A stretch of DNA of 22,723 nucleotides from positions 1 through 22,723 of IMG/VR virus record IMGVR_UViG_3300024518_004596; one strand, given 5' to 3'. The translations under genes were made by a program, and so were the position numbers. Positions 156 to 15,724 of the stretch are shown piece after piece. Within the stretch, counting starts at the first letter, position 1. Each line of letters starts with the position of its first letter. This DNA comes from a virus. A model generated the notes under the pieces. The model saw nothing but the letters and a program-made list of their open reading frames with translations, did not search any database and was not told where the DNA came from.

Positions 156-974
156 CTACCCTCCACCAAAAGTCGCGGCGTAGAAGTCGTAAGATCGCGC
201 GGAGCCACTCTGGATCTCCAGTCCCGACGCCGGGCCCAAGGGAACCGTAGCGCCAGGCAGCGTCGTCGTGAGCACAGCCTCGCCCTCGACCACGAACGCG
301 TCAGACAGGAGGTAGACACGGATCTCAGTGCTACTCACTGAGTCGATCACCAGCCAGTGCACGGCAGCGTCAGCTGTGACACCCGAGTCGGTGAAGGTGT
401 CGGTCGTCCCGTTGCCCGCCGCAAACATGAAGTTGCTGTCGCCGGCCGGGGTGGAGAACCTCAGCCCGACATAGTTCGTGGCGTCCGTCGCCGCCGGTGT
501 GTTCGTGAGCGACATAACGTCGTCGTCGGTGTCGCTCACCGACACGTACGCGCGCACAGAGGTCGCCAGACTCAGCCGGAATCGCTGAGCGCACCAGTAG
601 CCCGCCTGGTCTCCCCGCAGGGTGCGGTCGCCCAGCGTCCACCCAGCCTGGTCGCCTGTAACAGTCCCGCTAGTCAGCCGCAGGCGCACGCCCTCGGCGC
701 GTGCCGAGGCCGTAGACGTCGTGCTCGTCTCCGTGATCGTCACGGCGGTGCCGGTGCCGGCGAGGCTGTTGTTTGTCATGTCCACCGAGACCGCGCCCCG
801 GTGGCTCGCGCCGAGGCGGTCGAGCGGAATATCGGAGCGGGCTCCACCGTGCACGGCGGTGCCGGCCTCGACGCTGACCGTGCCAAGGTTGCTCGTCCCG
901 TACGCAGGGGCGAGCCAGGCAGCGGTCAGGCACGCCAGGGCGGCAGCGAGGAATGCAGCGGCAGAGCGGTCCAT
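156..974 (-). CDS. Signal-peptide beta-rich structural protein (fibre block, third of three)
   Basis: A 272-aa protein. Residues 1-26 form a typical Sec signal peptide: MDR, then a long Ala/Leu hydrophobic core, with likely cleavage near APAYG/TSN. The mature protein is rich in Thr, Ser, Val, Gly and Ala with alternating hydrophobic residues, as in beta-structured fibre or surface proteins. It opens with TSNLGTV, very similar to ASNIGNV at the same place in the preceding gene, so the two are probably paralogues. The body (about 95-265) could be a single beta-sandwich, perhaps lectin- or laminin-G-like, but I see no diagnostic motif. The start is ATG at 974-972, one base after the upstream TAG, with GGAG 10 bases before it. 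No enzymatic residues are evident. Likely a virion fibre or a secreted accessory. Confidence 0.6.
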   Translation of the reverse strand: MDRSAAAFLAAALACLTAAWLAPAYGTSNLGTVSVEAGTAVHGGARSDIPLDRLGASHRGAVSVDMTNNSLAGTGTAVTITETSTTSTASARAEGVRLRLTSGTVTGDQAGWTLGDRTLRGDQAGYWCAQRFRLSLATSVRAYVSVSDTDDDVMSLTNTPAATDATNYVGLRFSTPAGDSNFMFAAGNGTTDTFTDSGVTADAAVHWLVIDSVSSTEIRVYLLSDAFVVEGEAVLTTTLPGATVPLGPASGLEIQSGSARSYDFYAATFGGG

Positions 975-975
975 G

Positions 976-1671
976 CTACGGGGTCTCCTCTGTCAGGGTA
1001 CCGTGCTCGTCGGTGGCGTACCAGTTTCCCGCGCCGTCTGCGACCAGCTCCAGGCGCGCGCCAGTCGACTCTAGACCGAGATACTCGCCCGCAGCCATGA
1101 CGCCTCCCGAGTAGGTGATCGTGTCAGAGTCGTGGGGGTTGGCGCGGAAGCTCTGGGCAGCCGCGCGCACAAACACATGCGTGGTACCGGCGGCAGCGTT
1201 GTCGGTGAGAGTCAGAGCCACAACGCCAGCGGCGCCGGCGTTGGTGAAGACCGAGTCGCTTTCCGTGGCAGCGATCAGGTCGTCGGCGGTGTGCGCCTGG
1301 TAGACCTTTCGCACGGAGGCGCCGCTGATATTCGCGGACGTGATCGTCGCGCTCGACCCGAGCACGAACACGGCGGCCTCGTTCCCGTCGAGCAGGTCGG
1401 CATTGAGGTTGCCCACGGCGGTCGTGCTCGCAATGATCAGCGGCGCGGTGCCGGTCGCCACAGTCGACTCCAGCTGGTTGCCGCCGACCGTACCGGTCGC
1501 TGTAAGCGTGGTCAGGTTGATCGTACCCGCGTCGACGTTTCCGATATTGCTGGCTGCAATCGCGGCAGGGATCAGCGCCCCGAGGAACAGGATCAGGGCG
1601 GGGAGAGCAGCGCGGCGGAGCGGGCTGCGGCGGTTGGGGTCGTGCCCCAGGATCACATTGTGTCGGTGCAT
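976..1671 (-). CDS. Signal-peptide tail-fibre-like protein (fibre block, second of three)
   Basis: A 231-aa protein. An unusually long basic N-region (to about residue 20) precedes a hydrophobic stretch ending AAIA/ASN near residue 40, a good signal peptidase I pattern. The middle contains TTAVGNLNADLLDG, a sequence style common in phage tail fibres. The C-terminal part (about 150-231) contains YSGG, a run of short beta-like segments and ends GTLTEETP. This region is clearly related to the C-terminus of the neighbouring 566-aa fibre, which ends FGTLTED. The ATG at 1671 is preceded by GAGG with a 7-base spacer, encoded inside the terminal TLTED codons of the upstream gene, and the upstream TGA lies one base before it, so the genes are translationally coupled. 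Role inferred: a fibre or fibre-tip subunit. Why it has a secretion signal is not explained. Confidence 0.6.
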   Translation of the reverse strand: MHRHNVILGHDPNRRSPLRRAALPALILFLGALIPAAIAASNIGNVDAGTINLTTLTATGTVGGNQLESTVATGTAPLIIASTTAVGNLNADLLDGNEAAVFVLGSSATITSANISGASVRKVYQAHTADDLIAATESDSVFTNAGAAGVVALTLTDNAAAGTTHVFVRAAAQSFRANPHDSDTITYSGGVMAAGEYLGLESTGARLELVADGAGNWYATDEHGTLTEETP

Positions 1672-1672
1672 G

Positions 1673-3373
1673 TCAGTCCTCTGTCAGGGTTCCGAATTCG
1701 CGGACCGAGACCCATTCGCCGGTGCCGCTGGTGGAGGTTGCCGCCGGCACATAGACCAGCTCCAGGATAGCGTCTGCGCCCAACTCTAGCCCGGTGCCGT
1801 CCTGGGCGAGCAGGCCGCCCGTGTAGCGGATCCGGTCAGGGACTATCGGGCGGGCTTCGAGCGCGGCGTTGGTTCTCTTGAGTCGAACGATTGTACCGCT
1901 CGGCGGCTCGCCGGGCAGGAATACGTCGGCCCTGGCTGCGTTGGTGCCCACGACGATCACGTCGGTCTGGGCCGACGTGATCGTCGTGTCCGTCGTCGCT
2001 ATGACGACGTCATGCAGTCTGCGGAGCGCGCCAGCGGGTGATCCCGCTGACCCGCCGTTATTGGCGGTGAGTACCTGGCTGCTGACGCGAGCGATACCAG
2101 CGTCTGGGGCGCCGTTGGCGTCTGCCGTGCTCGACCATCGGAGCGAGCCCGCGTTGTCAAGAAATACCCTGCCGACGCCTGCTGAAGTGTCCATGCGTGC
2201 GTCAGGAGCAGCACCGCTGGTCGCGGTCGCGAGGAACCGGAGGGCAGCGTACCCAGCCATGCCACCTGCCTCGGTGGCCACCTCTAGGTTGCCATTAGCC
2301 GACGGAATGTTGCGCAGCAAGATGCGCGACGCAGCCGAGAACCCGTCCGCGAAGTGCAGCCGCTCAACCAGCAGGGAGCCGTCAGCCCCCCCCCCGTCGG
2401 TGACGCGGAGCGTGTCGTCCATACTGGTGACGGGCGCGACCCCCGACACGACCGCCCCCGTGTTGAGAGGGTCGCTGATCGACAGCTCACCAGCGCCGCC
2501 CCGCGAGAGGCGCAGGTCAGGGAGGCCAGATACGCTGGCACCTGCGAAGTACTCTATGTCGCCCGTCGACACAAGCTGGAGACGGGGTTCCCCGCCGAAG
2601 CTGCGGAAGTATCCGTCCGCGGTGTTGTTCCCGTCGTCGTCGACCAAAAAACCGTCGGCAGCCATGGTCGACGCGACAGCGCCGTCGAACACGCCCAGGA
2701 CCCCCGTCGTGATATCGCGGAGCTTGAGCTGTCCAACCGCGAACATGATCGACTCGGCGAACAGGTGCCCGTTGCCAGACCCGCCAGGCCCGAACACACC
2801 CAGCGTGTCAGCCTCGGTCGTGACCGAGGCAATCGATCCGGACCCGCTCCACTCCAGCACGGTGCCTACACCGATCACGGGATTCGTGCTCGCCGTCGCG
2901 CCGCGGGCGAGCGTGCTCTCCCATGTGTCCACCTCGACTGCCGCCGCCTGCGCCTCCCAGCTCGCGCTGGTCGCCTCCCACGTGAGGAGGTCGCCGTCCG
3001 AGGCGGCGAGCACAGACGCCGCGGAGACGTCGCTCAGGTCCCAGGTGGCGGTGGTGCTGTTGACCCATGCCGCGCTGTCGAATCGCAGGTGATCGCCAGT
3101 GCCAGGTGTAGGTGCCGTGACGTCTGCCAGGTCGTCGAGGTTGCTGGCACCGACGCCTGCGTCGGCCTCCCACCTTTGGTCGGTGGCGTCCCATGTCAGC
3201 ACCTGGCCACCCGTAGGCTGACCCTGTACCCCGACCGAACCACCGAACAGAGTGGAGATCGTCCCGGTGACCTGGCCCACGCCCTTCCGTGCGGTCTCGG
3301 GGTCAGCGACAGCGACCCCGGCCATGCACAGGCATGCCCCCAGAGCACCGATCAGCAGGTGTCGTCTAGTCAT
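1673..3373 (-). CDS. Signal-peptide tail-fibre protein (fibre block, first of three)
   Basis: A 566-aa protein from the ATG at 3373-3371, which I prefer to the GTG at 3412 because it opens a clean signal peptide: MTRR, a hydrophobic core and cleavage at AVA/DPE near residue 23. Residues about 54-140 hold three copies of a phage fibre motif of the form G-x-x-L-x-W/F-D/E-a-x-x-x-x-W (TGGQVLTWDA, GDHLRFDSAAW, DGDLLTWEA), with an LDDLADVT spacer, strongly typical of tail fibres. The middle is beta-rich and repetitive. The C-terminus (about 475-566) is homologous to that of the next gene and ends FGTLTED. The gene starts 8 bases inside the end of the coiled-coil gene. A G10 tract (mRNA sense) at codons 327-330 could cause slippage. 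Lipoprotein processing at LGAC is possible but weaker than the AVA site. Confidence 0.72.
   Translation of the reverse strand: MTRRHLLIGALGACLCMAGVAVADPETARKGVGQVTGTISTLFGGSVGVQGQPTGGQVLTWDATDQRWEADAGVGASNLDDLADVTAPTPGTGDHLRFDSAAWVNSTTATWDLSDVSAASVLAASDGDLLTWEATSASWEAQAAAVEVDTWESTLARGATASTNPVIGVGTVLEWSGSGSIASVTTEADTLGVFGPGGSGNGHLFAESIMFAVGQLKLRDITTGVLGVFDGAVASTMAADGFLVDDDGNNTADGYFRSFGGEPRLQLVSTGDIEYFAGASVSGLPDLRLSRGGAGELSISDPLNTGAVVSGVAPVTSMDDTLRVTDGGGADGSLLVERLHFADGFSAASRILLRNIPSANGNLEVATEAGGMAGYAALRFLATATSGAAPDARMDTSAGVGRVFLDNAGSLRWSSTADANGAPDAGIARVSSQVLTANNGGSAGSPAGALRRLHDVVIATTDTTITSAQTDVIVVGTNAARADVFLPGEPPSGTIVRLKRTNAALEARPIVPDRIRYTGGLLAQDGTGLELGADAILELVYVPAATSTSGTGEWVSVREFGTLTED
2386..2395. 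repeat. Homopolymer tract of 10 C (G10 in mRNA)
   Basis: Ten consecutive cytosines on the plus strand, coding a Gly-Gly-Gly run in the 566-aa fibre gene (codons 327-330). Loss of one base would end the protein at the TAG at 2284-2286, about 36 codons later. Tracts of this length are slippage-prone. Confidence 0.9.
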
Positions 3374-3671
3374 GGACGTCTTCCTTGGCCCGCATTGTAG
3401 TCTCCAATTCACCGACCCTTTTTTCGAGCGCCGAGATCCTCTTTTGCAGATCCTTGTCGTCCTTGTCGTCCTCCGCGTCTACGAGCGACCACCTTTCGCC
3501 GTCCCAGCGGTGGTGCTGATCCGCGGCGCCGCGGACACATGCGGGCTGCGGAGCGTGCGGGCATGGGGACTCGCCGGGCCCTACCAGGGCAGACCAGTCC
3601 AGATAGCCCACCCGCAGCAGGTCTCCGGTCTCGTCGTGAATCACTCCCGGGACCGTCTGCCCTGTCGACAC
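3366..3671 (-). CDS. Small coiled-coil protein, possible fibre connector or chaperone
   Basis: A 101-aa protein starting at GTG 3671-3669, two bases after the TAG of the 1330-aa gene, with an excellent AGGAGG site 7 bases upstream. The N-terminal half (about 1-62) has beta-like segments, a proline/cysteine-rich stretch and ends with HHRWDGERWSLV, a W-x-x-x-x-W motif similar to those of the fibre gene downstream. Residues about 65-97 are charged and helical with heptad spacing (LQKRISALEKRVGELETT), a coiled coil able to trimerise or dimerise. The 3' end overlaps the next gene's ATG by 8 bases. A connector between tail tip and fibre, or a fibre chaperone, fits the position. The family is not recognised. 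Confidence 0.62.
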   Translation of the reverse strand: MSTGQTVPGVIHDETGDLLRVGYLDWSALVGPGESPCPHAPQPACVRGAADQHHRWDGERWSLVDAEDDKDDKDLQKRISALEKRVGELETTMRAKEDVHD

Positions 3672-3673
3672 CC

Positions 3674-6600
3674 CTACACCTCCTCAACGAATCCGACCAC
3701 GTCTACGCGCCCACCGCCGCCGCCGCCGAATGCTCCTGTAGCACGACCCTCGATACCCTGATCGGTGCCCTGCGTGTGCAGGTAGGTGATCACCTGACCG
3801 TCGCTGTCGGTGGCAGCACCCGAGTACGCCGTGATCGGGTGCTGCAGCGCAGAGGCACCTTGCATGTTTCGCGGGCGAACAGACATGCTGCTGATAGCAC
3901 CGCTGTTGCCGATCACTCGCACGCCGAGGTGTAGCTGAGACGCCGTCGGCGGGCTGAATATGTTTGCGATCGCTGTCCAGACTCCGGCGACGAACGCGGA
4001 CACGAGGGCAAGGGAGCCGTCCGTCTCGCGGTACTGGTAGGTCCGAGTCGTGCCTTGGCACCTACACGAGTAGCTCTTGCTGGCCTGATTGATACCCTCC
4101 AGCACGCCGGCGACGCCGACTCGGCGAGAGTCGGCAGCATGCGTGGCGGGCGGGTTGAGTAGGCGCGTCCGCTGAGATGAGATCATGGCGGCCACTCCGC
4201 CGGTGCCGGACACGACCCACGCATAGGTGTGGATCGTGTCGATAACGTTTCCGGAGGGCAGGCCGCCCAGCTCGATACCCAGCCCGGCTGCGCCGTTGGC
4301 GGTCAAGTCGCGGAGGACCATTGCGGTCGCGCTGGTCACATGCGAAATCGTCTCGGAGTCGAAGTTGCCACCGCCGCGGTCGATTGTGACGGTGGCGTTT
4401 TCTACGCGCTTGACGGCGGTCGCGCCTGCAGCGCCGAGGGCGAGAGAGGTCGTCAGCAAGTTGTCCTGGGTGATCGCAGTCACGTACACGAACCGCCCGT
4501 GTGCAGAGGACCCGATCAGGTCCCCGACTGCAATCTCGCGAGTGAAGTCGGTTCCGCTGCCTGTGACGACGAATCCCGCGGAGGTAACGGTGCCCGAGAG
4601 CGCATGCGCGACGGCGTCTAGCTCGGCCAGGAAGCTCGTCCCGACGCCCGTGATTGCCGTAGATATGGCAGTGGTGACAGTGCCGGAGAGGGTCAGGTAG
4701 TCTGCGCCTCCTGCCCCCGCCGCCGTGGTGTTTGCGCTCAGCCTGCCGTTGGCCTCGATCAAGGTCCCGTTGAGCCCGATACACGCACTCTCGCGCGCGC
4801 CCATGCGCGGGAGGAGATTGACTTGCGCTGCGAGGATCCCCGTGCGGTCGACGCGCTGGGGCGCGAAGCCGGAGATAGCGGAGCCCTGGGCGCGCAGCGA
4901 CCCGCCCGCCGACAGGTCTACTAGTGTCCCGTCATCCCTGCGCCACCATGCCTCATTAGCGCCCGCAGTGTCGCCCGCGAACAAACCAACGTCCGCTCCC
5001 GCCATCGGGTCAGCCGCTTGCTCCGCAAGGACCAGCCCCGTTGGGTCGATCAGGCCGCCGACCGTGAGCTTTCCCGTCACGTCGGCGTTGCCGACAACGA
5101 GCAAGCCACTTTCGCCGAATGTCATAAGCGGAGAGACAAGCTCGGAGCCGTCACCGCTGTCGAGCGGAATGAATTGCAGCCCGGTAGGGGCGTGCTTCAT
5201 GGCCACCCCGCCCCGCGCGCCGTTCTGCCGGTCAGGGGTCGAGAACACCAGGCGCGTCAAGCCGCCTGCCATGATCCAATCCATGACGTACGGAGACACG
5301 CGCAGCGGATTCGCCGGATTGTAGTCCCCGTCCAGCACATGGCGCAGCTCGACACCCGCGGGAAGTGGCAGTACGCCACCGCCCTCGGGCGCTGGGCTGC
5401 CGGTGCGGACAGCAGCGCGCCCGCCTGCGCCGTAGCGCCACCCGCGCCACGTGCCGTCGCCACGTGCGTGACCCTCTAGGACCATCGCTGTGGGCGCACT
5501 CCGGTATGTTCCCAGGCGCCTGGCGCTTGACGCGTTGCCGCCTCGCGCGAAATCCTCAGCGACAGCGTTGTCGGGCCTCGCCTTGATCGCGATACCCCCG
5601 GCAGCCACGACCTGCCCGGGAAACAGCGGCGCGCGAGTGTCCCGGCCACCAAGCTTCCCTCGCAGGCTGGTGCCCTGCTCTCCGGTACGCACCCAGACCG
5701 CCGTAGGCCACCCTGTCTGGTCCAGGACTCCGGCAGCCCTGAGCGCAGCCACCTGCCAGGCGGAGACACCCCTGCCGACGCCTCCGATCCCCAAGCTCCC
5801 GGCCGGCAGGCCCGACGACTGCTCTGCGCCTCGGAATGGGGCGCCGCGCGGGACTCCTCCCCTCGGCCCAGGCGCGGAGGCGCGCGCGAATCGCCCGGCC
5901 ACAGACCCGCCGAGACCGGCTCTGGCAACTGGCGGGTCCCCAGACAGGCGAGGGCGTCCTCCTCGTCCTCCTCGTGCGCCGACCCCACCCGGCCCGGTGC
6001 CTGGGCCACCCGCACCACCCATACCCGGCCGCCCAGCGTTGGCGAACGGTCCGAGGTTGGGAAGGGGCGGTGGCTGCAGGGGCGGCGGAGGCAACTCCGG
6101 CTCCGACGGGATCGCCGGCACCTCAGCCTCCCACCGCCACAGTCCAGCACCCACGCCGCACCGCCACTGGTGCGCAGACTCTGGGTCGTTGCGCAGGTGC
6201 ACAGGCGAGCGCAGCGGGTAGCCGTCCGGCTGCGAGTACGCGGTCGGCTCGAACTCCAGTGGGGCGTCGCCAGCGCCGCCGCGGAATAGAGTGCTGGTGT
6301 GCAGGTGGCCAGCGTTGATCGGGTGGCCGTCTCGGTCGGTGCCCACCTGGTGCTGGTCCACCAGTCCGCCGACCTCTAGAGGACCACCTGCCAAGGATCC
6401 CATGAGGGCGTGCACATTGCCGGGCGTGCGCTCCCCTCCGCCTCCCGGGTCAGCAGTCGTAGAGTCACCGCCACCGTCCCTGGTGCGTGTCTGTGTGTCA
6501 GACAGCGTCGACCGCAGGCGCGCGATCTCTCCGTCTATCTGTCGGATCTGAGCCACCAAGCGGTTGACCGCACCAGCCCCGAACGGCACCCCCGACCGGG

Positions 6601-7666
6601 CAAGGTCAGACTTCACCCGCTGAATCTGCGCCTGGATTCCAGCACGGCGCTGCTGCAGCTGGTCGATTGCGTCGAGCGTGCCCTGGATCTTGGCCGAGTA
6701 GCTCGACGCGCGCGGCGGCGCGAATGCAGGTGGAGGGCCGGGAGGCCGCTCAACCGAGGTGGGCTGACCGACTCCTGGCTGCTGCGGGCGGGCCCTGGTG
6801 CCGTTCGCGCCAGGATCGCGTGTCCTGGTACGTGTCGGGTCCTCCGGCTCACCAGGGGGCTCTGGGCGCCTCTCTGGCTCAGGGTCTACCAGCTCAGATC
6901 CTGCTCCCGCAGTGACCCAGCCGTGACCCGACTTGGCGTCTTGGCCGGAGACACCCAGCTGCCATGCCAGGGCAGGACCGTCGGTCGGCACTGCGCACCG
7001 CTTGTCGGGCACCAACACACGCCATGCGGTATGCAGAGGGGCTGGCTGCGGATCTAGTCCGCCGTTGTCGTCCAAGTCATAGACCAATGTCGATTTCTCG
7101 GGGTCACCTCGGCGGTTGACCGCGATCAACACACCCGGATCGGTCGGCAGGAACAGATTGACCTGCTTCTTTTCCTCGGTCGACACCAGGACTACGCCCG
7201 GCGTGCCCTTGCGCACGCGCGGAGAGTCGGGGTGCGCGAACGCCTGACCGGGGGCGTAGCGTGGGTCGCCGCCAAAATCGGGGCCGGTGCGGACAGGAAC
7301 GTAACGCACCACCCGCTCGCGGCTAGGCTCCTGCTCTCGCGCACGCGCGCGGGAGCCTGCGAGGGCGAGGGACGGAGGTATCTCTTCGTCCTCAGAGATC
7401 ACGACCGGTAACGCGAACGTCCAAGAGCCTATTGCCCGCGTTGCGGGCGGTACGAACTGTCCTCCTTGCAGGTCGCCCACAGTGGGCTGGGTGCCCTGCG
7501 ACCCAACGTGTCCCTCCGCGACGTACCGGAACGGCCAACCGGCCTCGCGCTTCTCGATCTGCAGTCCGTGAGGGACGTTCCTCGCCTCAGGGTCGACGTC
7601 CGGGCGGTGATCCCGCAGGGGCAAGTCGGGTTGGCTACCGCGGTCTGGTATGGATCGCCCGCTCAC
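3674..7666 (-). CDS. Large modular tail-tip or fibre protein
   Basis: A 1330-aa protein starting at GTG 7666, overlapping the upstream TGA (GTGA), with GAGG 8 bases before it. Modules seen in order: a beta-like N-terminal region of unknown fold (about 1-270); a Pro/Arg-rich linker (about 275-325); a coiled coil (about 325-400); a Gly/Pro-rich, collagen-like disordered stretch (about 515-580, PPPPLQPPPLPNLGP then GGAGGPGTGPGG); a region with fibre-style segments (GKLTVGGLIDPTG, RRDDGTLVDLS, about 870-930); two related beta units (GVGTSF near 1000, GSGTDF near 1040); and a C-terminal beta region ending after a GGGGGG run. Its place after the hub-like gene and before the fibres suggests a central tail-tip or host-recognition protein. 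No catalytic motif was found. The modular make-up suggests domain shuffling. Confidence 0.65.
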   Translation of the reverse strand: MSGRSIPDRGSQPDLPLRDHRPDVDPEARNVPHGLQIEKREAGWPFRYVAEGHVGSQGTQPTVGDLQGGQFVPPATRAIGSWTFALPVVISEDEEIPPSLALAGSRARAREQEPSRERVVRYVPVRTGPDFGGDPRYAPGQAFAHPDSPRVRKGTPGVVLVSTEEKKQVNLFLPTDPGVLIAVNRRGDPEKSTLVYDLDDNGGLDPQPAPLHTAWRVLVPDKRCAVPTDGPALAWQLGVSGQDAKSGHGWVTAGAGSELVDPEPERRPEPPGEPEDPTRTRTRDPGANGTRARPQQPGVGQPTSVERPPGPPPAFAPPRASSYSAKIQGTLDAIDQLQQRRAGIQAQIQRVKSDLARSGVPFGAGAVNRLVAQIRQIDGEIARLRSTLSDTQTRTRDGGGDSTTADPGGGGERTPGNVHALMGSLAGGPLEVGGLVDQHQVGTDRDGHPINAGHLHTSTLFRGGAGDAPLEFEPTAYSQPDGYPLRSPVHLRNDPESAHQWRCGVGAGLWRWEAEVPAIPSEPELPPPPLQPPPLPNLGPFANAGRPGMGGAGGPGTGPGGVGARGGRGGRPRLSGDPPVARAGLGGSVAGRFARASAPGPRGGVPRGAPFRGAEQSSGLPAGSLGIGGVGRGVSAWQVAALRAAGVLDQTGWPTAVWVRTGEQGTSLRGKLGGRDTRAPLFPGQVVAAGGIAIKARPDNAVAEDFARGGNASSARRLGTYRSAPTAMVLEGHARGDGTWRGWRYGAGGRAAVRTGSPAPEGGGVLPLPAGVELRHVLDGDYNPANPLRVSPYVMDWIMAGGLTRLVFSTPDRQNGARGGVAMKHAPTGLQFIPLDSGDGSELVSPLMTFGESGLLVVGNADVTGKLTVGGLIDPTGLVLAEQAADPMAGADVGLFAGDTAGANEAWWRRDDGTLVDLSAGGSLRAQGSAISGFAPQRVDRTGILAAQVNLLPRMGARESACIGLNGTLIEANGRLSANTTAAGAGGADYLTLSGTVTTAISTAITGVGTSFLAELDAVAHALSGTVTSAGFVVTGSGTDFTREIAVGDLIGSSAHGRFVYVTAITQDNLLTTSLALGAAGATAVKRVENATVTIDRGGGNFDSETISHVTSATAMVLRDLTANGAAGLGIELGGLPSGNVIDTIHTYAWVVSGTGGVAAMISSQRTRLLNPPATHAADSRRVGVAGVLEGINQASKSYSCRCQGTTRTYQYRETDGSLALVSAFVAGVWTAIANIFSPPTASQLHLGVRVIGNSGAISSMSVRPRNMQGASALQHPITAYSGAATDSDGQVITYLHTQGTDQGIEGRATGAFGGGGGGRVDVVGFVEEV

Positions 7667-9816
7667 TCGACTAGCCTCTCCACTATCCGCCGCGTACCCA
7701 TGGACAGGAAGCTACCAGGGGACCTGGGCGGCGGGTCGGAAGGAAAATCAAGAACCGTCGTGGCGCCTCGGCCAGCGCCGAACTCGTGCGCGACGGAGCG
7801 CGTGGTCCCAGCCGGGACCACGCCAGGTACAAACCCGGTATGCAGCTGTCCCTCTACACGATTGGCGAGGGACGCATAGACGCGCGCGGCAAACGCGCGC
7901 GCCTGGTCGTTAACCTCGTCCACATTGATGGGGTCCCCCAAGGCTGCGGTGAGATCTTCCTGCCCGGCCCAGGCGCGGTAGAACGCCTGGGCGTGTTCGT
8001 CTTGCCATCCGAATCTTGCTACGGTCGTCGTCGACTGCACTCGCACATGTATCTCAGGCCCGACGCCTCCTAATATCTCCGTGTTCGGGAGCAGCCCCAA
8101 GACGTCACTGGCCGTGACTGGCACCGTGTGAAACTTCCGGAGGCTGTTAGGGGCGCCCATGCCGACTGTCACTATCACGCTGATCTGGTGAACCACGGTC
8201 GCGTCAGCAAAAGCCAGCCACTGGTTGCTGGCCCTCGGGTCGTCCTCGGGTAGTCCGTCTGGTTGCTCAAGCGCAGTCGGATAGATCAGGGTCACCTGCC
8301 CTGTAAAGTCTCTCTCGAACTGCAGGAAAAGAATGCCCTGGTCCTCGTCCTCTACGAGCACCCGCACGGGCGCGGGCGCGAGATCCTCGATAGGGGTGTC
8401 AATTATCTGCCCCCCGGTTGGGGCGTTCGGGTTGGCAAACCTGTTCCTGATTGGGCGCCAATCGCGCTGGTCAAGACCTGCGAGCCGCACGGCCTCGATC
8501 TCTCTCCAGAAGGACACCTCGGCATAATCCGTGAAGACCGTAGCCGGGCCCCTGCTGCCGCGCTCTGTGTTGATAATGGCCACGCGCTCCGCCTTGATCC
8601 CGCGCACGCGATCTAGCCAGCGCTTGCGCAGCTGAATGCGCTGCCGGAATGCCCCACGCAGAGCCCGGATCCTGCGTCCCCAGATCCCTGTCACGTCCAG
8701 CTTGGGCACACTGTAGAGCGTGATCGCCGGGCTTGCGTACGCAGTGCGCAGCACGTCTAGCGTGATATCAGGGAGGGTGGGGATAAGCTGCTTGCCGGCG
8801 AGAAACTCAAGATAACCGTCGAGGTCTACATACGTACCCAGCACGTAGTCCTGGCCTCGTATCGTTGCGTCCTCCGGAAGTGCAACTACATAGTCACCGG
8901 TCGGCGGCTCCGCTGCGCGCTCTCCTCCGTCGACCGTTGGGTCCGCACCCTCCTCCACGTCTATGCGCAGCTCGACGCGCCTCGTGAAATGCACCAGCAC
9001 ACGGCTCGGCAACTCTTGCCTTCTGTCCTGCAGGTCAAAATGCGGAGTCTGCTCGTAAGGGTCTCCGATACCTGCGGCGGAGACGGCCGAGTCGGGCGAC
9101 ACGCTGGACCCTACGCCTTCGCCTGGCTGCGCCACTCCGACTAGGTCGCGCTCACCGCCGCTGAGGCGGTTGAATACGACGACCCTGCCGTCGTAGTCGA
9201 CGTACACGCCGTAAGCTCGCCCGAAGTAAGCGAGCACGCGAGCGAGCGCCACGTCGCCAGGGTCGTCCAATTCGAGCGCCTGAACGGGCGAGTTGTCACT
9301 GTCGCCCAAGACGGCAGCGACATCAGGCTCGATGTGATAGACCACCCCGAGATTGGTCAGAACGTCTCGCAGCACCTGTAGCCCGGTCCACCGGGCGCCG
9401 TTGCGCAGGGACCATGGCGCATAGGCCAGATCGTCGTCGATCTGGGCTACCGCGACAGGTGCTCCCGGCAGCCGGCGGCGGGCTCCTGTGCGGCGGGGCA
9501 TATTGTACGCGCGCGCGACGTGGAGCCGCCCCCACGTCCAGCGGCGGTCGACAACAATCAGCCTCTCTTGGTCGCGATGGTTTGCTGGGCTGGTGCCCAG
9601 GATCGTCAGGGCCTCGACCGTCTGGGTTCCACGGCCCTCCGCCGTGGCATCGAGCACAAGCACCGACCCGTGTATCCTCCCAACAGCGCGGTTGTACAGA
9701 TCGGTCGCTATCAGCCTGGGCAACACATACCCGCGAGCGTGGGGAGCGGTGCCCACAGTCAGAGCCCACCCCCCGCTGGACTCGTGCAGCACCTGGCCGT
9801 CCAACGTCACCTTCAC
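7663..9816 (-). CDS. Tail hub / baseplate hub-like protein
   Basis: A 717-aa protein starting at GTG 9816 (GTGA overlap with the previous stop; GAGG 8 bases upstream). Features resembling tail hub proteins (gp27/gpD-type): an N-terminal beta region; a helix-strand unit at about 145-215, where a stretch like LQVLRDVLTNLG precedes LARVLAYFGRAYGVYVDYDG and VVVFNR, the usual hub pattern of a short helical segment followed by a strand describing a model equation-like domain; and a C-terminal part (about 630-690) with an ARAFAARVYASLANRVEG helix, then an HTGFVPG segment and HEFGAGRG, typical of the last hub domain. No peptidase or lysozyme motif is visible. It would cap the tube and carry the 1330-aa protein. 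A near-perfect hairpin lies in its 3' part. Hub assignment rests on sequence style and order, not alignment. Confidence 0.55.
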   Translation of the reverse strand: MKVTLDGQVLHESSGGWALTVGTAPHARGYVLPRLIATDLYNRAVGRIHGSVLVLDATAEGRGTQTVEALTILGTSPANHRDQERLIVVDRRWTWGRLHVARAYNMPRRTGARRRLPGAPVAVAQIDDDLAYAPWSLRNGARWTGLQVLRDVLTNLGVVYHIEPDVAAVLGDSDNSPVQALELDDPGDVALARVLAYFGRAYGVYVDYDGRVVVFNRLSGGERDLVGVAQPGEGVGSSVSPDSAVSAAGIGDPYEQTPHFDLQDRRQELPSRVLVHFTRRVELRIDVEEGADPTVDGGERAAEPPTGDYVVALPEDATIRGQDYVLGTYVDLDGYLEFLAGKQLIPTLPDITLDVLRTAYASPAITLYSVPKLDVTGIWGRRIRALRGAFRQRIQLRKRWLDRVRGIKAERVAIINTERGSRGPATVFTDYAEVSFWREIEAVRLAGLDQRDWRPIRNRFANPNAPTGGQIIDTPIEDLAPAPVRVLVEDEDQGILFLQFERDFTGQVTLIYPTALEQPDGLPEDDPRASNQWLAFADATVVHQISVIVTVGMGAPNSLRKFHTVPVTASDVLGLLPNTEILGGVGPEIHVRVQSTTTVARFGWQDEHAQAFYRAWAGQEDLTAALGDPINVDEVNDQARAFAARVYASLANRVEGQLHTGFVPGVVPAGTTRSVAHEFGAGRGATTVLDFPSDPPPRSPGSFLSMGTRRIVERLVE
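7800..7823. repeat. Perfect inverted repeat, 10-bp arms and 4-base loop
   Basis: Arms GCGTGGTCCC and GGGACCACGC are separated by AGCC, inside the 3' part of the hub-like gene. No T run follows on either strand, so it is not a standard factor-independent terminator. It could form a stable mRNA hairpin about 137 bases before the gene's end. Confidence 0.85.
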
Positions 9817-11474
9817 TGGTCACGCCTCTGGTTTCTCAGGTCGCGAGGAGACCCTGGCGAGACCGAAGAACTCATGCTCGAAGGACTACCAGACTCGCCC
9901 GCGGCCTGCGGCGCAGGCCCTACGACTCGGACTGTCTCGCGAGTTGTGGTCGACTGTAGAGTCAGTGTATTAGGCGCGATACCGATACGCTGAGTGCGTA
10001 TCGTCGGGCGTTCGCGGCGGATCAAGAATGCTCCGCCCGCCAGCCCACCGCCCGCGCCCTTGCTCCCCCCGCCGCCGCCGATCCCACCAAGCTGCCCGCG
10101 GCCCCCGTTGGCTGGAGTGACAACTATGGAGAAATTGTCCCCGATCCCGAATCCGACTGCGCCTTGCCCGGGGAAGCGGATATGGACAGGTCCGGGCTTT
10201 CCTAGGTCGCTGAGCAATACCCTGCGGCCGACCCCGTCAGCGGGGCGCTGGCCTGCGCCTCCGCCTCCACGCGCACCGCGACCGGAGATCGTGACATCTG
10301 TGGTCGAGACAGTCCGCAGGATCACAGCAGAGCCAGGGCTAACGTCATGGGGTGTGGGCGCCGGGTCCTCGCCCTGAGTCGGGAATCTGTCCGCATAGTA
10401 CGGCCGGAATACATGGCGCCACTCCGTGGACTCCGACGTGATCACGACACGGCTGAGGAGACTGGTCGACCCTTGGCTGGCCAGCGCTCGCACTCGCGCC
10501 GTGAGCACGTTGAGCTTGGGGTCGTAGGAGGGACCAGACTCGATCACAGCGATATCAGAGCCGCCCGTAGCGTCCCGGATGTTCTGAATCACCCACGGCA
10601 GCAGCCTGCCGTCCCACAGGCTGCGGAGCGACGGAACACCTGTGATTACGTCCTTGTCCACGTCTGCGCGGAATGTGGCGAGCACCTGGATCAGTGGCGC
10701 CGAGGCGCTGCTCCCGTCGTCGTCCGCGCCTGGAGTCGCTGCCTCGATCACAAGCAACTCGTTTGCGATATCGGGATCGTCCAGCAGTCCGGCACTCTCG
10801 TTGTGGATCAACTCGCGGAAACTGCGCTCCCATGTGGTCACGTGGTCAGTGTCGTCCGTAATCGTGCGCTCACCGATTCCAGGCACGGCGGCCCATGCGC
10901 CACCCAGGAGCACCTGGATGGTTGCGATCTTAGTGCCGGCAGCAGCGTTGTAGCCGGCGAGTGAGGCGGTCCCTGACCCGTTGTGCGTGTAGGTACCGCG
11001 CACAACCAGAGTGCGCACGCGAGACGGTGAAGTTGACACCTCGTAGGTGAGGTCAGACCGCAGAGCGGCGGCATCGTAGTCTGCAGGTCGACCGCCGCGG
11101 ACGATCACGTCGAAGCGAACGGATCGTCCCGACTGCCCCTCTTGGTCCTGCGGCTGGCTGATCTCTGCCTCTACATTCAGAGCCTCGCCGGTGGAGTGTG
11201 CTGCAGACAGCAGGGTCCCCTCACTGGCCCCGGTCCCCGCGTTGACCAGCTCCACCAGCAGATCAGATCGGGGAGTACGGAATGCCGTGGTGGCCGCAGC
11301 GATCTCAGTCGCGAGGTCAGCGGCGCTCGTGGTCCCGGCGATTTGCAGCGTGAACGAAAACGAGAACGCGTCGGAGGAGTCTGAAATCGAGAACGGGCCC
11401 ACAGGCTGCCGCTTCGCCTGTCCCTGGCCGGCTACATAGGATCCATATGTGATCCTCAGCTCGCGACGTGGCAC
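9813..11474 (-). CDS. Beta-rich tail structural protein with glycine-rich segment
   Basis: A 553-aa protein from GTG 11474, two bases after the upstream TAG; the binding site is weak, so coupling to upstream translation is likely. The N-terminus (about 1-130) shows ITYGSYVAGQGQ followed by alternating beta segments and a helix (TSAADLATEIAAATTAF) before PRSDLLVEL, a layout seen in tail proteins that package repeated beta domains. The central region (about 130-390) is beta-rich. Residues about 395-475 are Gly/Pro-rich (RGARGGGGAGQ, GGIGGGGGSKGAGGG), like the glycine-rich caps of some fibre-tip proteins. The tail end is Ser/Pro/Arg-rich and probably disordered. It lies between the short tape-measure candidate and the hub, so distal tail or tip-collar protein is the best guess. 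The family was not identified. Confidence 0.5.
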   Translation of the reverse strand: MPRRELRITYGSYVAGQGQAKRQPVGPFSISDSSDAFSFSFTLQIAGTTSAADLATEIAAATTAFRTPRSDLLVELVNAGTGASEGTLLSAAHSTGEALNVEAEISQPQDQEGQSGRSVRFDVIVRGGRPADYDAAALRSDLTYEVSTSPSRVRTLVVRGTYTHNGSGTASLAGYNAAAGTKIATIQVLLGGAWAAVPGIGERTITDDTDHVTTWERSFRELIHNESAGLLDDPDIANELLVIEAATPGADDDGSSASAPLIQVLATFRADVDKDVITGVPSLRSLWDGRLLPWVIQNIRDATGGSDIAVIESGPSYDPKLNVLTARVRALASQGSTSLLSRVVITSESTEWRHVFRPYYADRFPTQGEDPAPTPHDVSPGSAVILRTVSTTDVTISGRGARGGGGAGQRPADGVGRRVLLSDLGKPGPVHIRFPGQGAVGFGIGDNFSIVVTPANGGRGQLGGIGGGGGSKGAGGGLAGGAFLIRRERPTIRTQRIGIAPNTLTLQSTTTRETVRVVGPAPQAAGESGSPSSMSSSVSPGSPRDLRNQRRDQ

Positions 11475-11476
11475 CG

Positions 11477-12046
11477 CTACTCACCACCCGTCGTTTGCGC
11501 AATGAAGTCCTCAAACGAATCGAAGCCTCTCCTAGACGCCTCGCCACCCAAGGCAGCAGCGCCCACCCGCCTGGACTGCCGCTGCAACATGAACACGTCA
11601 ATCTGCTGCGCGGCCTCAACGTCTGCGACGTTGCGAACCAGGTCGTCCGATATGGGCACACCAGCGCGCGCGAGGGGAGCGAGCTGCGCAGCAATACCAC
11701 CCTGGGTGCCTGACAAAATAGAAGCAGCGTCGACACCTGAGCGAATCACATCCGACAATTCAGCGATAGGCCCAAGCAGCACCTTGGCGGACTCACTCAA
11801 TTCACCCGCGGCAGCCACACCCAAGGTGATGGCATCGGTGAGCAAGCGGATATCTGCGGCTGTCGCACTCGCAGCCGTCCCCACGGCTGCGCCAGCGCCA
11901 CGGACGCCGCGGATCTGCGCAGCGAATCCGCGCTCTGCGTTCGAGCGCCCCTGTAGTGCTCTAGTGCCCTGCTGAAGGCGCTGCGCGAACCTGTCAAGGG
12001 CTGTCGCCGCCTTCTCGCTCGCGCGCGCCCCGTCACCTCTTGCCAC
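11477..12046 (-). CDS. Short tape-measure-like protein (candidate)
   Basis: A 189-aa protein from GTG 12046, three bases after the upstream TGA. It is mostly helical and Ala-rich: a basic N-terminal helix (about 1-45, with ALDRFAQRLQQGTRALQ), then an Ala/Gly-rich hydrophobic middle (about 48-82) and a second one (about 85-125), and a charged C-terminal helix. This composition, and its place between the chaperone-like gene and the tip genes, match a tape-measure protein. It is, however, far shorter than usual tape measures (several hundred to over a thousand residues; lambda gpH is 853). By the common rule of about 1.5 Angstrom per residue, it would specify a tail of only about 28 nm. Alternatives: an internal or pore-forming ejection protein, or a tail completion protein. 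Confidence 0.45.
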   Translation of the reverse strand: MARGDGARASEKAATALDRFAQRLQQGTRALQGRSNAERGFAAQIRGVRGAGAAVGTAASATAADIRLLTDAITLGVAAAGELSESAKVLLGPIAELSDVIRSGVDAASILSGTQGGIAAQLAPLARAGVPISDDLVRNVADVEAAQQIDVFMLQRQSRRVGAAALGGEASRRGFDSFEDFIAQTTGGE

Positions 12047-12049
12047 CTA

Positions 12050-12397
12050 TCACGCACCCAGACCGGTCAGCATGGCACCCGCCCGCGCTGCGGCCCTGTG
12101 CTTCTGCCAGCCGGCCCACGCAGAATCCGCGAACCGCTCGATCTCGCCGTCGGTCATATCGGGATCCGGCTCCTGCTCTGCGTGTGGATCGTGCGGCAGC
12201 CCGCTGCGCGCCTGCGCGAGGGCCTCCTGCTCGGCGGGAGACCACGAGCACCACTCAGACACTGGTACCACGACGCCTCCGCGCACCAGCCGGTCGGCTG
12301 CAGCCAGCAACGCAGCGGCCACGCCAGGGTCGCACAGCGCCTCCTCGAACTCGTCTCGCGAGAGAGACCCCAGGCCGCACGCATGCCTCAGGCTCAT
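12050..12397 (-). CDS. Tail assembly chaperone-like protein (by position)
   Basis: A 115-aa protein. I start it at ATG 12397-12395, which overlaps the previous TGA as ATGA, rather than at the earlier in-frame start at 12427. It is acidic and mostly helical: DEFEEALCDPGVAAALL near the N-terminus, a tryptophan segment (SEWCSWSPAEQEALAQA, about 48-64), a Pro/Asp-rich linker and a C-terminal helix (DGEIERFADSAWAGWQKHR). The tail tube gene before it and the tape-measure candidate after it are the usual setting for a gpG-type chaperone that coats the tape measure during assembly. No obvious slippery heptamer for a gpG-gpGT style frameshift is visible near the 3' end. The call is positional, with modest sequence support. 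Confidence 0.45.
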   Translation of the reverse strand: MSLRHACGLGSLSRDEFEEALCDPGVAAALLAAADRLVRGGVVVPVSEWCSWSPAEQEALAQARSGLPHDPHAEQEPDPDMTDGEIERFADSAWAGWQKHRAAARAGAMLTGLGA

Positions 12398-12963
12398 GGT
12401 GCGGTCATCTCCGACGTTGGCGCCCATTCCAGGCGCCGACCGTCACTAGGGCGGCGCGCAGCGACGAAGGAGACCAGCCATGTGACCTCTGAAGCGGCGC
12501 TCATGTCCAAGGCTGCCTCGCCTCCTCGCTCTGCGGCCACACGAGGCAGGGCCTCGTACAGGAGCAGCCCAGGATGCGTGGGATCGTCTGGAGTGAACAG
12601 GACCTGGACCGCTTCGTCCGAAGCCCACGCACCAGCGCGCACAGGGCCAGGTTCCCGGAGCCACTCGCCCGAGCTGGTGAAGGTGTTGGGGAATACGGCC
12701 GTGATCGCGTCGGCGTCGGCGCCGCGAATGCGCCACACGATCATGACGCCTACGCCACCGCGTACGTCGTCCACGACCTCCCCGCCGAACTCCCACGCGG
12801 TGAGCGGCGCCATCGAAATATCAGCCCAGCGCAGCGTGACATTCTGAGCCAGCCCCAGGAGCGTTCCTCCATTGGAGGCGGCGGCAGCGGTGATGTCGGT
12901 GAACGGTCCCACAGAGATCGTCCCTGGGATTCGCAGGGCCTGGGCTATGGACGGCGAGGCCAC
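12394..12963 (-). CDS. Tail tube (major tail) protein-like
   Basis: A 189-aa protein from GTG 12963, three bases past the upstream TAG; the ribosome binding site is weak. It has a beta-barrel pattern: TISVGPFTDIT, then NGGTLLGLAQNVTLRWAD, a loop, VGVMIVWRIRGADADAI with a helix, and a second half with alternating strands ending EVTWLVSFVAARR. This arrangement, in which the strand after LG leads into a long loop (AWEFGGEVVDD) that could form the inner tube hairpin, is typical of tube proteins. The position between head-tail joining genes and the chaperone/tape-measure pair supports it. It would polymerise in hexameric rings. The 3' end overlaps the next start by four bases. Not confirmed by alignment. 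Confidence 0.5.
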   Translation of the reverse strand: MASPSIAQALRIPGTISVGPFTDITAAAASNGGTLLGLAQNVTLRWADISMAPLTAWEFGGEVVDDVRGGVGVMIVWRIRGADADAITAVFPNTFTSSGEWLREPGPVRAGAWASDEAVQVLFTPDDPTHPGLLLYEALPRVAAERGGEAALDMSAASEVTWLVSFVAARRPSDGRRLEWAPTSEMTAP

Positions 12964-12966
12964 TGG

Positions 12967-14307
12967 CTACGGGTCCGAGATCGTGGGGGGGGTTCCCGCC
13001 ACTGTGTGAGGCAAGTAGCGCGCAGCGACCAGAGCAAGCATCTTCTGGATCTTGCTGTCGGGCGTCAGCGAGTCCGTGAACGTGTACTCGTCGTCTAGCT
13101 GCCAGTCTGCGACACCAGACCCCGCGTCGTTGCCGAGGCTCTGGAGCATGTACCAGAGGCCGGCGAACTGAGCTAATGACGAGAAAATGAACTCCGTAAT
13201 CAACAGAGTGCCCGTCGTGCGGGAGGCGAGTTTTAGCTCGACGACTGCGGACGACTCGATAAAGTTAGCAGGCCACAGGTCGGCGTCAAATGCGGGCTCG
13301 ACCAGCGTCCAGCGATCGTTGGTCAGACTGGACACGGCCTGGGTAGTCGTCTTGCTACCTACCTTCATTGTGAAGGTGCCGTCACATGACACCTGCCGAC
13401 GAACCGCAATGGCGCGGTAATACGGCACACCTGTGCCTAGCTGAACATTCGCATCAAGGAAGGTCTGCGTGAGCGTGACGTTGTCGTCGAGCTGCAGGCT
13501 GTGCGGGTTGGCAACCCCCTGTGGCGACCGGTAGACGGTATTGCGGTTGAGCGTGATCTTGGTCACGTCGTCAACGGCCCAGGACCTGATCACGTCAGAC
13601 GCGATCAGCGTGTACAGCCCGCCGGAGAAGTTAAGGGCGCCGCCCACGTCGTAGAAGCCTGCATTGCTGACAATCGAATCGGACGCCTGCACACCGCGCG
13701 TCGCGTCACCGTCGCGCAGCACCAGCCCGCTGCCCTTGCCGCTGGCGCTCTCGTACCCCAGGTCGGAGCGCGGCGCATTCGCACCCTTGAATTCAAACAA
13801 CTCCTGGTAGCGCGTAGCCCCCAGATTCTGGTCTGCCACGCAGCGCACGCGTACGGCCTCCGCGAAGGCCGCCTCAATGTCCCGGCCAAACTCGTCGACT
13901 GTCAGGCGACGCAGCACGCCGGTGCCGACGTTTCCCGCCGCGGCGGCGGGAGTGGCGAAGGTAAAGCCGCGCGTAAGGATCGTCACCGGAGTCGGTGTCC
14001 GCGTAGCCCAATCCAGGAAGATTCGGTCAAGGCACGGATCAAGAGTGCGCTCGGGATCCCCGAGGATGTGGTGACAGAACGCTGCGGCCCAGACCTCCAG
14101 CACGCCCCGGAACTGCTGCACAACTTGGCCAGCACGCGTCTCGATAGCAGACATGGCTCCGCGATGCTGCGCGGCGAAATCATTGAGGACGTTTGCGTCT
14201 GCCGTATCGATATCCGCGCCCACAGTCTGCTGTGACAGGTAGTTGTCGAAGATCCTGGCAATGTCTTGCAGCTGCGTCCTGAGCTGTGCCTCGGTCGGCG
14301 CGGCCAT
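12967..14307 (-). CDS. Virion protein with helical N-terminus and possible jelly-roll domain
   Basis: A 446-aa protein starting with ATG 14307, immediately after the upstream TAG, with a GAGG-GGG sequence upstream. The N-terminal quarter (about 1-100) is helical and Gln/Ala-rich. About 100-200 is mixed. Residues about 265-380 read like a carbohydrate-binding-type jelly roll: LTQTFLDAN, YYRAIAVRRQVSCDGTFTMKV, NDRWTLVEPAF, then VVELKLAS, TLLITEFIFSSL. The C-terminus (WYMLQSLG to ARYLPHT) is helical. A C8 tract occurs in the last codons. The place between the head-tail adaptor and the tail tube suggests a neck or collar appendage, or a head-tail completion protein with a sugar-binding domain. 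Family not recognised; the jelly-roll assignment is inference from the strand pattern. Confidence 0.5.
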   Translation of the reverse strand: MAAPTEAQLRTQLQDIARIFDNYLSQQTVGADIDTADANVLNDFAAQHRGAMSAIETRAGQVVQQFRGVLEVWAAAFCHHILGDPERTLDPCLDRIFLDWATRTPTPVTILTRGFTFATPAAAAGNVGTGVLRRLTVDEFGRDIEAAFAEAVRVRCVADQNLGATRYQELFEFKGANAPRSDLGYESASGKGSGLVLRDGDATRGVQASDSIVSNAGFYDVGGALNFSGGLYTLIASDVIRSWAVDDVTKITLNRNTVYRSPQGVANPHSLQLDDNVTLTQTFLDANVQLGTGVPYYRAIAVRRQVSCDGTFTMKVGSKTTTQAVSSLTNDRWTLVEPAFDADLWPANFIESSAVVELKLASRTTGTLLITEFIFSSLAQFAGLWYMLQSLGNDAGSGVADWQLDDEYTFTDSLTPDSKIQKMLALVAARYLPHTVAGTPPTISDP

Positions 14308-14637
14308 CTACACCCCCTCGTGCGAATGCAGCCTCGCCAGCTCGACGTCTACGATCCGCGACCCGCCGCGTGGGTCCTGCCACGCCACGACAAGCCAATC
14401 CTCGCCGGAGTCTCTGATCACGTCGTTGCGCCTCGGAGTCGGCGCGTAATCTGCGATAGAGTAAGTGTACACTCGCGCGCGGTGCGAGTCGTCGTCACTC
14501 CTGCGCTGGCGAATGGCCAGGGACGCGAGCGCGACAGGAGTCCCTCCTGCCGCGGGTACGTAAAAGATTGACGCCTCCCCGTGGACCTCCAGCATCAGAT
14601 CCCGTGCGGCCGAGAACAGGTCGTCGGCACCAGCCAT
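14308..14637 (-). CDS. Head-tail adaptor / stopper-like protein
   Basis: A 109-aa protein from ATG 14637, four bases after the previous TGA, with GAGG about 8 bases upstream. The first part is a helix (DDLFSAARDLMLEVHG); the rest is a small beta barrel with YSIADYAPTPRRNDVI, then GEDWLVVAWQDPRGGS and IVDVELARL. The combination of a short N-terminal helix with P-R-R-x-D/G-x-I followed by a strand ending in a W/Y-x-V-V pattern is characteristic of lambda gpFII / HK97 gp10-type stopper and joining proteins that close the portal channel and join the tail. It is positioned after the capsid genes and before the tail tube. I am moderately sure of the class but not of the exact family. Confidence 0.6.
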   Translation of the reverse strand: MAGADDLFSAARDLMLEVHGEASIFYVPAAGGTPVALASLAIRQRRSDDDSHRARVYTYSIADYAPTPRRNDVIRDSGEDWLVVAWQDPRGGSRIVDVELARLHSHEGV

Positions 14638-14641
14638 GACG

Positions 14642-15154
14642 TCACCTCACCCACAGGTCCAGAGTGCCGGCCGACGGTACAGCGACCACCTTGACGGCGT
14701 CGCTGCCCTTGCTGTCGAAGTACAAGGCAGGTGCCATGAATGCGGAAGCCCCGTCGGTGTAGGTAGCTGACGCAGACAGCGTGGCCACGCTGTGGCTCTG
14801 CGTGGTCCAGTCGCCGTCGTTGGCCAAGTCTCCCCGGATCACGACGACCGTTGCTGTCGCGCTCGCGTTCGTGAACCGGCCGCTGATCTCCACTGTTGCA
14901 GACCCCGCAACAGTGAAGGTAGCCAGCGTTGCGATACCGGTAGTGGCGCCGACGTCGCCCTCGCCGGTCGACGTGCCCAGAGACGTCAACGACGCGTCCC
15001 CGGACAGGTCGGTGACCAGGGCGTCGTCCACAGTCGACCGCAGCGCAGAGACCGTGGACTCGTCGGGATAGGTCTCAAACACGCGGTCCTGAGCCGCGAG
15101 GGCGGCAGTCAGCACGAGCAAGAGGCCAGAGGCTACAGCGGTGCTAGCGCGCAT
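14642..15154 (-). CDS. Signal-peptide beta-rich protein near capsid gene
   Basis: A 170-aa protein from ATG 15154. Residues 1-21 form a signal peptide (MRASTAVASGLLLVLTAALA, cleavage before AQD). The mature part starts acidic and helical (TVSALRSTVDD), then turns into a Thr/Ser/Ala-rich beta region (ATFTVAGSATVEISGRF, ATATVVVIRGDL, TLSASATYTD) ending TLDLWVR, consistent with a single beta-sandwich. It follows another signal-peptide protein and precedes the head-tail adaptor. The 5' region holds a G9 tract (mRNA sense) 7 bases before the ATG, exactly where a Shine-Dalgarno sequence should be, and no other one is visible. Possible roles: head decoration, head fibre or secreted accessory. Family unknown. 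Confidence 0.6.
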   Translation of the reverse strand: MRASTAVASGLLLVLTAALAAQDRVFETYPDESTVSALRSTVDDALVTDLSGDASLTSLGTSTGEGDVGATTGIATLATFTVAGSATVEISGRFTNASATATVVVIRGDLANDGDWTTQSHSVATLSASATYTDGASAFMAPALYFDSKGSDAVKVVAVPSAGTLDLWVR

Positions 15155-15161
15155 GACACGG

Positions 15162-15170
15162 CCCCCCCCC
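15162..15170. repeat. Homopolymer tract of 9 C (G9 in mRNA) at a ribosome binding site
   Basis: Nine cytosines on the plus strand lie between the stop at 15173 and the ATG at 15154. In the mRNA this is G9, ending 7 bases before the ATG, the usual Shine-Dalgarno distance. No other Shine-Dalgarno sequence is present. Tract length changes would alter spacing and initiation, not the frame. Confidence 0.9.
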
Positions 15171-15172
15171 TG

Positions 15173-15724
15173 CTAGTTGGCGACGTCCACGAACGTGGCG
15201 CTAGCGCCTGCTCGGTAGTACATGACGTACGGCAGCTCAATGTCGCCCTGCTCAGTGCTGACAAGGACCATGATCCTCGCGCGCTCATTGGGCCCGACAA
15301 CGCCGAGGTCGAGCGTGATAGACCTATCACCGGCCAAGGTGCCGGTGATCGTAGACGTCTGCTCCTCGTTGTCAGTCCGCCAGTTGGCGGACTGGAACCG
15401 ACGCGCCACAGCAAACCGAATCGTCTCGCTGGTGTAGCCGCCCGCGAAGCCGTCGTTGCCGTCGCCCTGGTCAAGGTCCACGTGAACCTTGACGTCGTTC
15501 ATGGCGAAATTGTCCTGCGGCGTGATCGTCAGCAGGGTCTGATAGCTGGTGTAATCGGCCGCTGAGACGTCGACAAACGTGCTCGAAGACTGCACACGCA
15601 TAATCGACGCATCGTAAAATCTAGGCGACGTCTCGACCGCCTCGGCTCCAGGAGGAAGGAGAGCCAAGACGGCGAGAACGGTCGCAAAAAAGAGAGTGAC
15701 AATGACCGCGGTCTGCTTGTTCAT
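15173..15724 (-). CDS. Signal-peptide structural protein directly after capsid gene
   Basis: A 183-aa protein. I start it at ATG 15724 because AGGAG lies 6 bases upstream, overlapping the capsid gene's TAG, and because the resulting N-terminus is a textbook signal peptide: MNKQ, hydrophobic core TAVIVTLFFATVLAVLALL, and AEA/VET cleavage near residue 29. The mature domain has alternating strands (STFVDVSAADYTSYQTLLTI, NDVKVHVDLD, RSITLDLGVVGPNERARIMV) and ends with TFVDVAN, which repeats the FVDVS wording found early in the mature region. It may be a beta-sandwich that caps or decorates the head. Transcription is surely shared with the capsid gene. Family not recognised; the secretion signal is unexpected in this position. 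Confidence 0.62.
   Translation of the reverse strand: MNKQTAVIVTLFFATVLAVLALLPPGAEAVETSPRFYDASIMRVQSSSTFVDVSAADYTSYQTLLTITPQDNFAMNDVKVHVDLDQGDGNDGFAGGYTSETIRFAVARRFQSANWRTDNEEQTSTITGTLAGDRSITLDLGVVGPNERARIMVLVSTEQGDIELPYVMYYRAGASATFVDVAN

Follow-up and report, generated by a model that had tools for sequence, protein, structure and literature searches.

The virions of tailed phages are normally assembled in the cytoplasm. What, then, are export-type signals doing at the N termini of five proteins encoded in the structural operon of one such phage? The question is raised by a viral record of 22,723 bases, classed as linear and possibly a fragment, with a GC content of 62-72%; the record was analysed entire and is referred to here as the window. 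As judged from the gene list and profile matches, all of its credible genes lie on the minus strand in a lambda-type order. The operon opens with a GpA terminase, a 91-aa gene, a lambda-family portal, an S78 protease, a gene with a weak decoration-protein match and the major capsid protein, so that the lambda-type set of terminase, portal, protease and capsid protein of a tailed phage is present in order. SP1, SP2, a gene with a weak lambda FII match and several unmatched genes follow, and the operon closes with a 1330-aa fibre/hub-type protein, a 101-aa coiled-coil gene, fib3, fib2 and fib1 (Table 1). Two signal genes are therefore found between the capsid and FII-like genes, and the other three end the tail-fibre region. 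Because the FII-like gene comes next after SP2, SP1 and SP2 are placed in the slot of FI on the lambda map.

Table 1. Features of the structural operon, with predicted N-terminal signals (a slash marks the predicted cut) and the basis of each assignment.
Feature	Coordinates	Strand	N-terminal segment (DNA)	Basis or remark
Terminase large subunit GpA	21286..22722	-		PF20454 / PF05876; 5' end cut by contig end
Lambda-family portal	18760..20541	-		PF05136, E=1.2e-63
Prohead protease S78	17627..18763	-		PF04586, over cut-off
Major capsid protein	15733..17100	-		phrog_133/4523, E about 1e-5, plus gene order
SP1, 183 aa	15173..15724	-	MNKQTAVIVTLFFATVLAVLALLPPGAEA/VETS (15638-15724)	Predicted signal peptide; directly after major capsid protein
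SP2, 170 aa	14642..15154	-	MRASTAVASGLLLVLTAALA/AQDR (15095-15154)	Predicted signal peptide; between SP1 and FII-like gene
Head-tail attachment protein, lambda FII-like	14308..14637	-		Weak: PF05354, E=0.0015 full length, under curated cut-off
1330-aa fibre/hub-type protein	3674..7666	-		No signal peptide; type judged from sequence only
101-aa gene	3366..3671	-		C-terminal coiled coil; between 1330-aa gene and fib3
fib3, 566-aa fibre-like protein	1673..3373	-	MTRRHLLIGALGACLCMAGVAVA/DPET (3305-3373)	Predicted signal peptide with twin arginine
fib2, 231-aa NADLLDG-type tail fibre	976..1671	-	20-residue n-region, core ending ALIPAAIA/ASNIG (1555-1671)	Predicted signal peptide, long n-region
fib1, 272 aa	156..974	-	MDRSAAAFLAAALACLTAAWLAPA/YGTS (903-974)	Hydrophobic start; lipobox-like motif

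Three further genes deserve mention. A 446-aa gene after the FII-like gene (12967-14307) has no family match. The sole tape-measure candidate (11477-12046) encodes 189 aa, despite the lambda-type head genes; this would suit a very short tail, unless the gene is something else. Beyond fib1, a short reading frame at positions 1-154 (VTEILFRMHLFSKPWQQAEWQ...), with no Pfam match, runs off the window.

All five signal-bearing reading frames were confirmed, with starts at 15724, 15154, 3373, 1671 and 974 on the minus strand. The initial annotation credited each with a complete Sec signal peptide, comprising a basic n-region, a hydrophobic core and an A-x-A-type cleavage pattern. The last two elements are common to all five proteins, each having a charge-free core (19-residue KD mean 1.9-2.7) and small residues at -3 and -1. 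The basic n-region is present in four, the exception being fib1, whose n-region MDRS has a net charge of 0 and which is the weakest of the five as a Sec signal. Each protein has a predicted export-type signal, and the Sec label proves too narrow. Candidate twin-arginine motifs occur in fib3 (TRRHLL) and, less clearly, in fib2 (LRRAAL), and the fib3 signal appears Tat-like. Residue C15 of fib1 (LAAALA/C) fits a PS51257-like lipobox pattern that the other four lack, and fib1 may be a lipoprotein. The hydrophobic segment is single and N-terminal in each protein; the bodies reach at most 1.33 KD, with nothing membrane-grade elsewhere, and no other gene of the structural operon starts with a membrane-grade segment and an A-x-A-type site. 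The start of SP1, located 9 bp past the capsid gene stop, is backed by the Shine-Dalgarno sequence TAGGAGCCATAATG, and that of fib3, which overlaps the stop of the 101-aa gene, by AAGGAAGACGTCCATG; Shine-Dalgarno sites and tight gene coupling also support the fib2 and fib1 starts. The SP2 start is weaker, with a nine-G run (15155-15172) where such a site would be expected and a possible GTG start downstream. The run is possibly a ribosome-binding substitute, or else a site of slippage or assembly error.

Signals were scored with a home-made von Heijne-type matrix combined with rules for the n-region and h-region. The matrix is approximate, some column sums deviating from 36; trial sequences for the scoring were 17 textbook signals and six non-signals. 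A strict filter passed 0/86 in the fibre survey described below, missing real signals; because obvious signals were missed, it was relaxed, with a check against known signals, and the relaxed rule was chosen after those cases had been seen. In the window, four of the five proteins pass the strict rule, fib1 failing on n-region charge only, and the relaxed rule passes 5/19 genes, exactly SP1, SP2, fib3, fib2 and fib1. Across three locus sets, comprising about 360 phage loci, the relaxed rule passes about 2% of co-oriented ORFs, a rate that is approximate because the gene caller is crude. The window, with five of 21 co-oriented ORFs, has the top count, all other loci yielding four or fewer. At a 2% rate, and with independence assumed, the binomial probability of five or more passes among 19 genes is 3e-5; residue shuffles give a mean of 0.32 signals per operon and a maximum of three, with 0/2000 reaching five. 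At the sequence level, N-terminal export signals far above background are well supported.

The annotation of two of the bodies as fibre-like is upheld by comparison, which supports this type for fib2 and fib3 only. fib2 carries an NLNADLLDG segment. Its residues 66-142, a repeat segment in common with two known fibres, match the tail fibre of cyanophage P-HM2 (E about 6e-6), and residues 66-123 match the distal tail fibre of Thermus phage phiFa (E about 2e-5). The phiFa fibre starts without a signal, whereas fib2 starts with a predicted one. fib3 is tied to NADLLDG-type fibres only through the C-terminal domain that it shares with fib2 (32% over 130 aa). No informative match was obtained for fib1, SP1 or SP2; profile searches of all five proteins against PHROGs and Pfam, and of fib2, SP1 and fib3 against PDB sequences, returned nothing usable. 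Structure prediction without an alignment gave pLDDT values of 44 for SP1 and 55 for SP2, the low-confidence SP2 model consisting of an N-terminal helix followed by beta strands in the C-terminal half. Jelly-roll/CBM-like fold matches to this model were set aside as generic. The five bodies contain one cysteine in total, a scarcity weakly compatible with an oxidising compartment.

In the phage collections and loci fetched, no relative of the whole operon was found; distant relatives in the fetched loci are limited to the terminase, portal and protease. Because the window phage lacks close relatives, the NADLLDG fibre type was surveyed instead. Two DNA-pattern scans yielded 141 distinct 5'-complete NADLLDG ORFs from viral contigs, most of them without any N-terminal hydrophobic segment. 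Six were flagged for a signal, of which five (3.5%) are convincing; the remaining one, L143, was dropped by eye as a false positive. Four other contigs (G001-G004) carry the signal-bearing fibre inside a structural region. In G001, four signal-peptide genes, the fibre among them, follow one another upstream of the terminase, portal and capsid genes, and before these four comes a gene for a 716-aa protein that begins with a hydrophobic stretch; a relative search with its 154-aa signal-peptide protein returned only the query. The order in G004 is terminase small and large subunits, a 139-aa gene, a 1037-aa signal-peptide fibre, two signal-peptide genes and portal. The latter contig has 61,457 bases and is classed as linear, but the 127-base direct repeat that forms its two ends (L239, L371) points to a genome of about 61.3 kb that is circular or complete. 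To read the fibre, which runs across both ends of the contig, these were overlapped at the repeat. G001 and G004 are not fully independent, because their fibres share 74% over 61 residues. In G002, baseplate wedge genes are soon followed by a signal-peptide fibre and a 203-aa protein whose N terminus resembles a signal; among isolates, the fibre matches only a Maribacter phage. The fibre of G003 lies within a tail operon, and G005 combines a long signal-peptide fibre with two further flagged genes elsewhere in the contig. Several predicted cuts in G002, G003 and G005 expose Gln, which would fit real processing in those lineages, an argument not applicable to this window. Another phage contig (L170, 8172-10074) contains three consecutive signal-peptide-like genes; it was left out of the fibre count because its NADLLDG match lies in a short chance frame. 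Among cultured relatives, the starts read were those of the phiFa fibre and of the P-HM2 fibre-adjacent genes, and no signal was found on them. The uniqueness implied by the initial annotation does not hold, since one to four signal-peptide genes are found at like positions in other contigs. The homologous-operon search that it proposed yielded no whole-operon relative; the recurrence in unrelated phage contigs came to light through the fibre survey. The signals form a real pattern that is uncommon and that recurs.

On this evidence, most of the five proteins are probably exported. A more tentative proposal, and the one preferred here, is that they are late, exported fibre-type proteins that join virions at lysis. 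We infer export, cleavage, an external folding site and virion attachment, as follows. The host Sec machinery would carry the five proteins across the inner membrane in late infection, with Tat possibly serving fib3 and lipoprotein processing possibly acting on fib1. Folding into beta-rich oligomers would then take place outside the cytoplasm, and finished virions would receive the proteins at cell lysis, fib1-3 at the tail and SP1 and SP2 at the head. This reading is favoured because passes in the window lie so far above background, with a single N-terminal segment in each protein, and because fibre signals also occur in the structural regions of G001-G004. The structural slots that the genes occupy, together with their fibre architecture, are the grounds for ranking virion attachment first, with a surface role close behind and uncleaved anchors third. 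Against it stand the cytoplasmic norm of tailed-phage assembly, the tail-fibre relatives in cultured phages, which lack a signal where their starts were read, and the literature searched, which provided no example of exported fibres joining virions at lysis. Virion proteins with Sec signal peptides are familiar from filamentous phages, as in the coat proteins pIII and pVIII; there the virion is assembled in the membrane, whereas the window, with its terminase, portal and protease, belongs to a tailed dsDNA phage. A broader reading, at less than even odds, is that several unrelated tailed phages pass some of their virion fibres through the host export system and finish the particle outside the cytoplasm, at lysis or later.

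Somewhat less likely than virion attachment, the proteins could be exported but not incorporated, instead coating or modifying the infected-cell surface and debris or serving as adhesins. Masked receptors would stop progeny re-adsorption or superinfection, with fibre modules reused to bind the same receptor. Precedents for export include T5 Llp, a lipoprotein coded beside pb5 that blocks FhuA (PMC9586334), and lambda Lom, a signal-peptide protein coded between tail genes (PMC12309495). Lom resembles the window genes in being a signal-peptide protein from a tail region; it is described as an outer-membrane beta-barrel. Llp and Cor of T1-like phages are likewise phage-coded, exported and adjoin receptor-binding genes (PMC9586334), and the lipobox-like motif of fib1 is in keeping with such a role. 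Additionally, in one phage family, that of Porphyromonas gingivalis prophages, several proteins have predicted signal peptides and are proposed to modify the outer membrane (PMC10367356). Their cuts obey the Bacteroidetes signal-peptidase rule, in which Gln is exposed, and they are not known to be tail fibres (PMC10367356). Exclusion proteins such as Llp are, however, single, small and made early (PMC9586334), in contrast to five genes in a structural operon, of which two are fibre-like and two occupy a head-gene slot. Llp and Cor are small lipoproteins with a lipobox; the five proteins, at 170-566 aa and with a lipobox-like motif in fib1 (272 aa) only, do not conform to that type.

Still less likely, the segments could be N-terminal hydrophobic helices that remain uncleaved, or are cut by a phage protease, without export, and that act as trimer cores, particle anchors or membrane-active elements at entry. 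Those of SP1 (19-residue KD mean 2.68) and fib2 are long enough for a membrane anchor. Moreover, a predicted signal need not mean export: in the P. gingivalis case reported, it is presumably the prohead protease that takes the predicted signal peptides off the capsid proteins (PMC10367356). This possibility is countered by the A-x-A-type sites, which lie at the right distance in all five proteins, by the basic n-region in four, by the lack of such a segment in most tail fibres with the same body type and by the Gln-rule cuts in other contigs, which fit signal peptidase. That Ala/Leu-rich N termini in high-GC DNA merely mimic signals, or that starts are wrong, is very improbable, given the shuffles, the low background, four supported starts and occurrence of the pattern in contigs of 38-48% GC too, although window GC, the home-made predictor and the uncertain SP2 start lean that way.

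Single exported proteins from tail regions, and several predicted signal-peptide proteins per phage family, were already known. A search of the open-access literature found no report of signal-peptide fibre gene blocks in structural operons. New here are the proportion of NADLLDG fibre ORFs in viral contigs with such signals, about 3.5%, and the two contigs in which three or four signal-peptide genes form a block beside terminase/portal genes. Recurrence in unrelated phages raises the possibility, as far as sequences can indicate, that some phages export fibre proteins before lysis. If some lineages do so, the folding of fibres, the host range and the moment at which virions are completed would hinge on the host secretion machinery, and the exported fibres could act on the infected-cell surface before lysis. 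Any cultured phage with one of the recurring signal-peptide gene blocks would allow a direct test.
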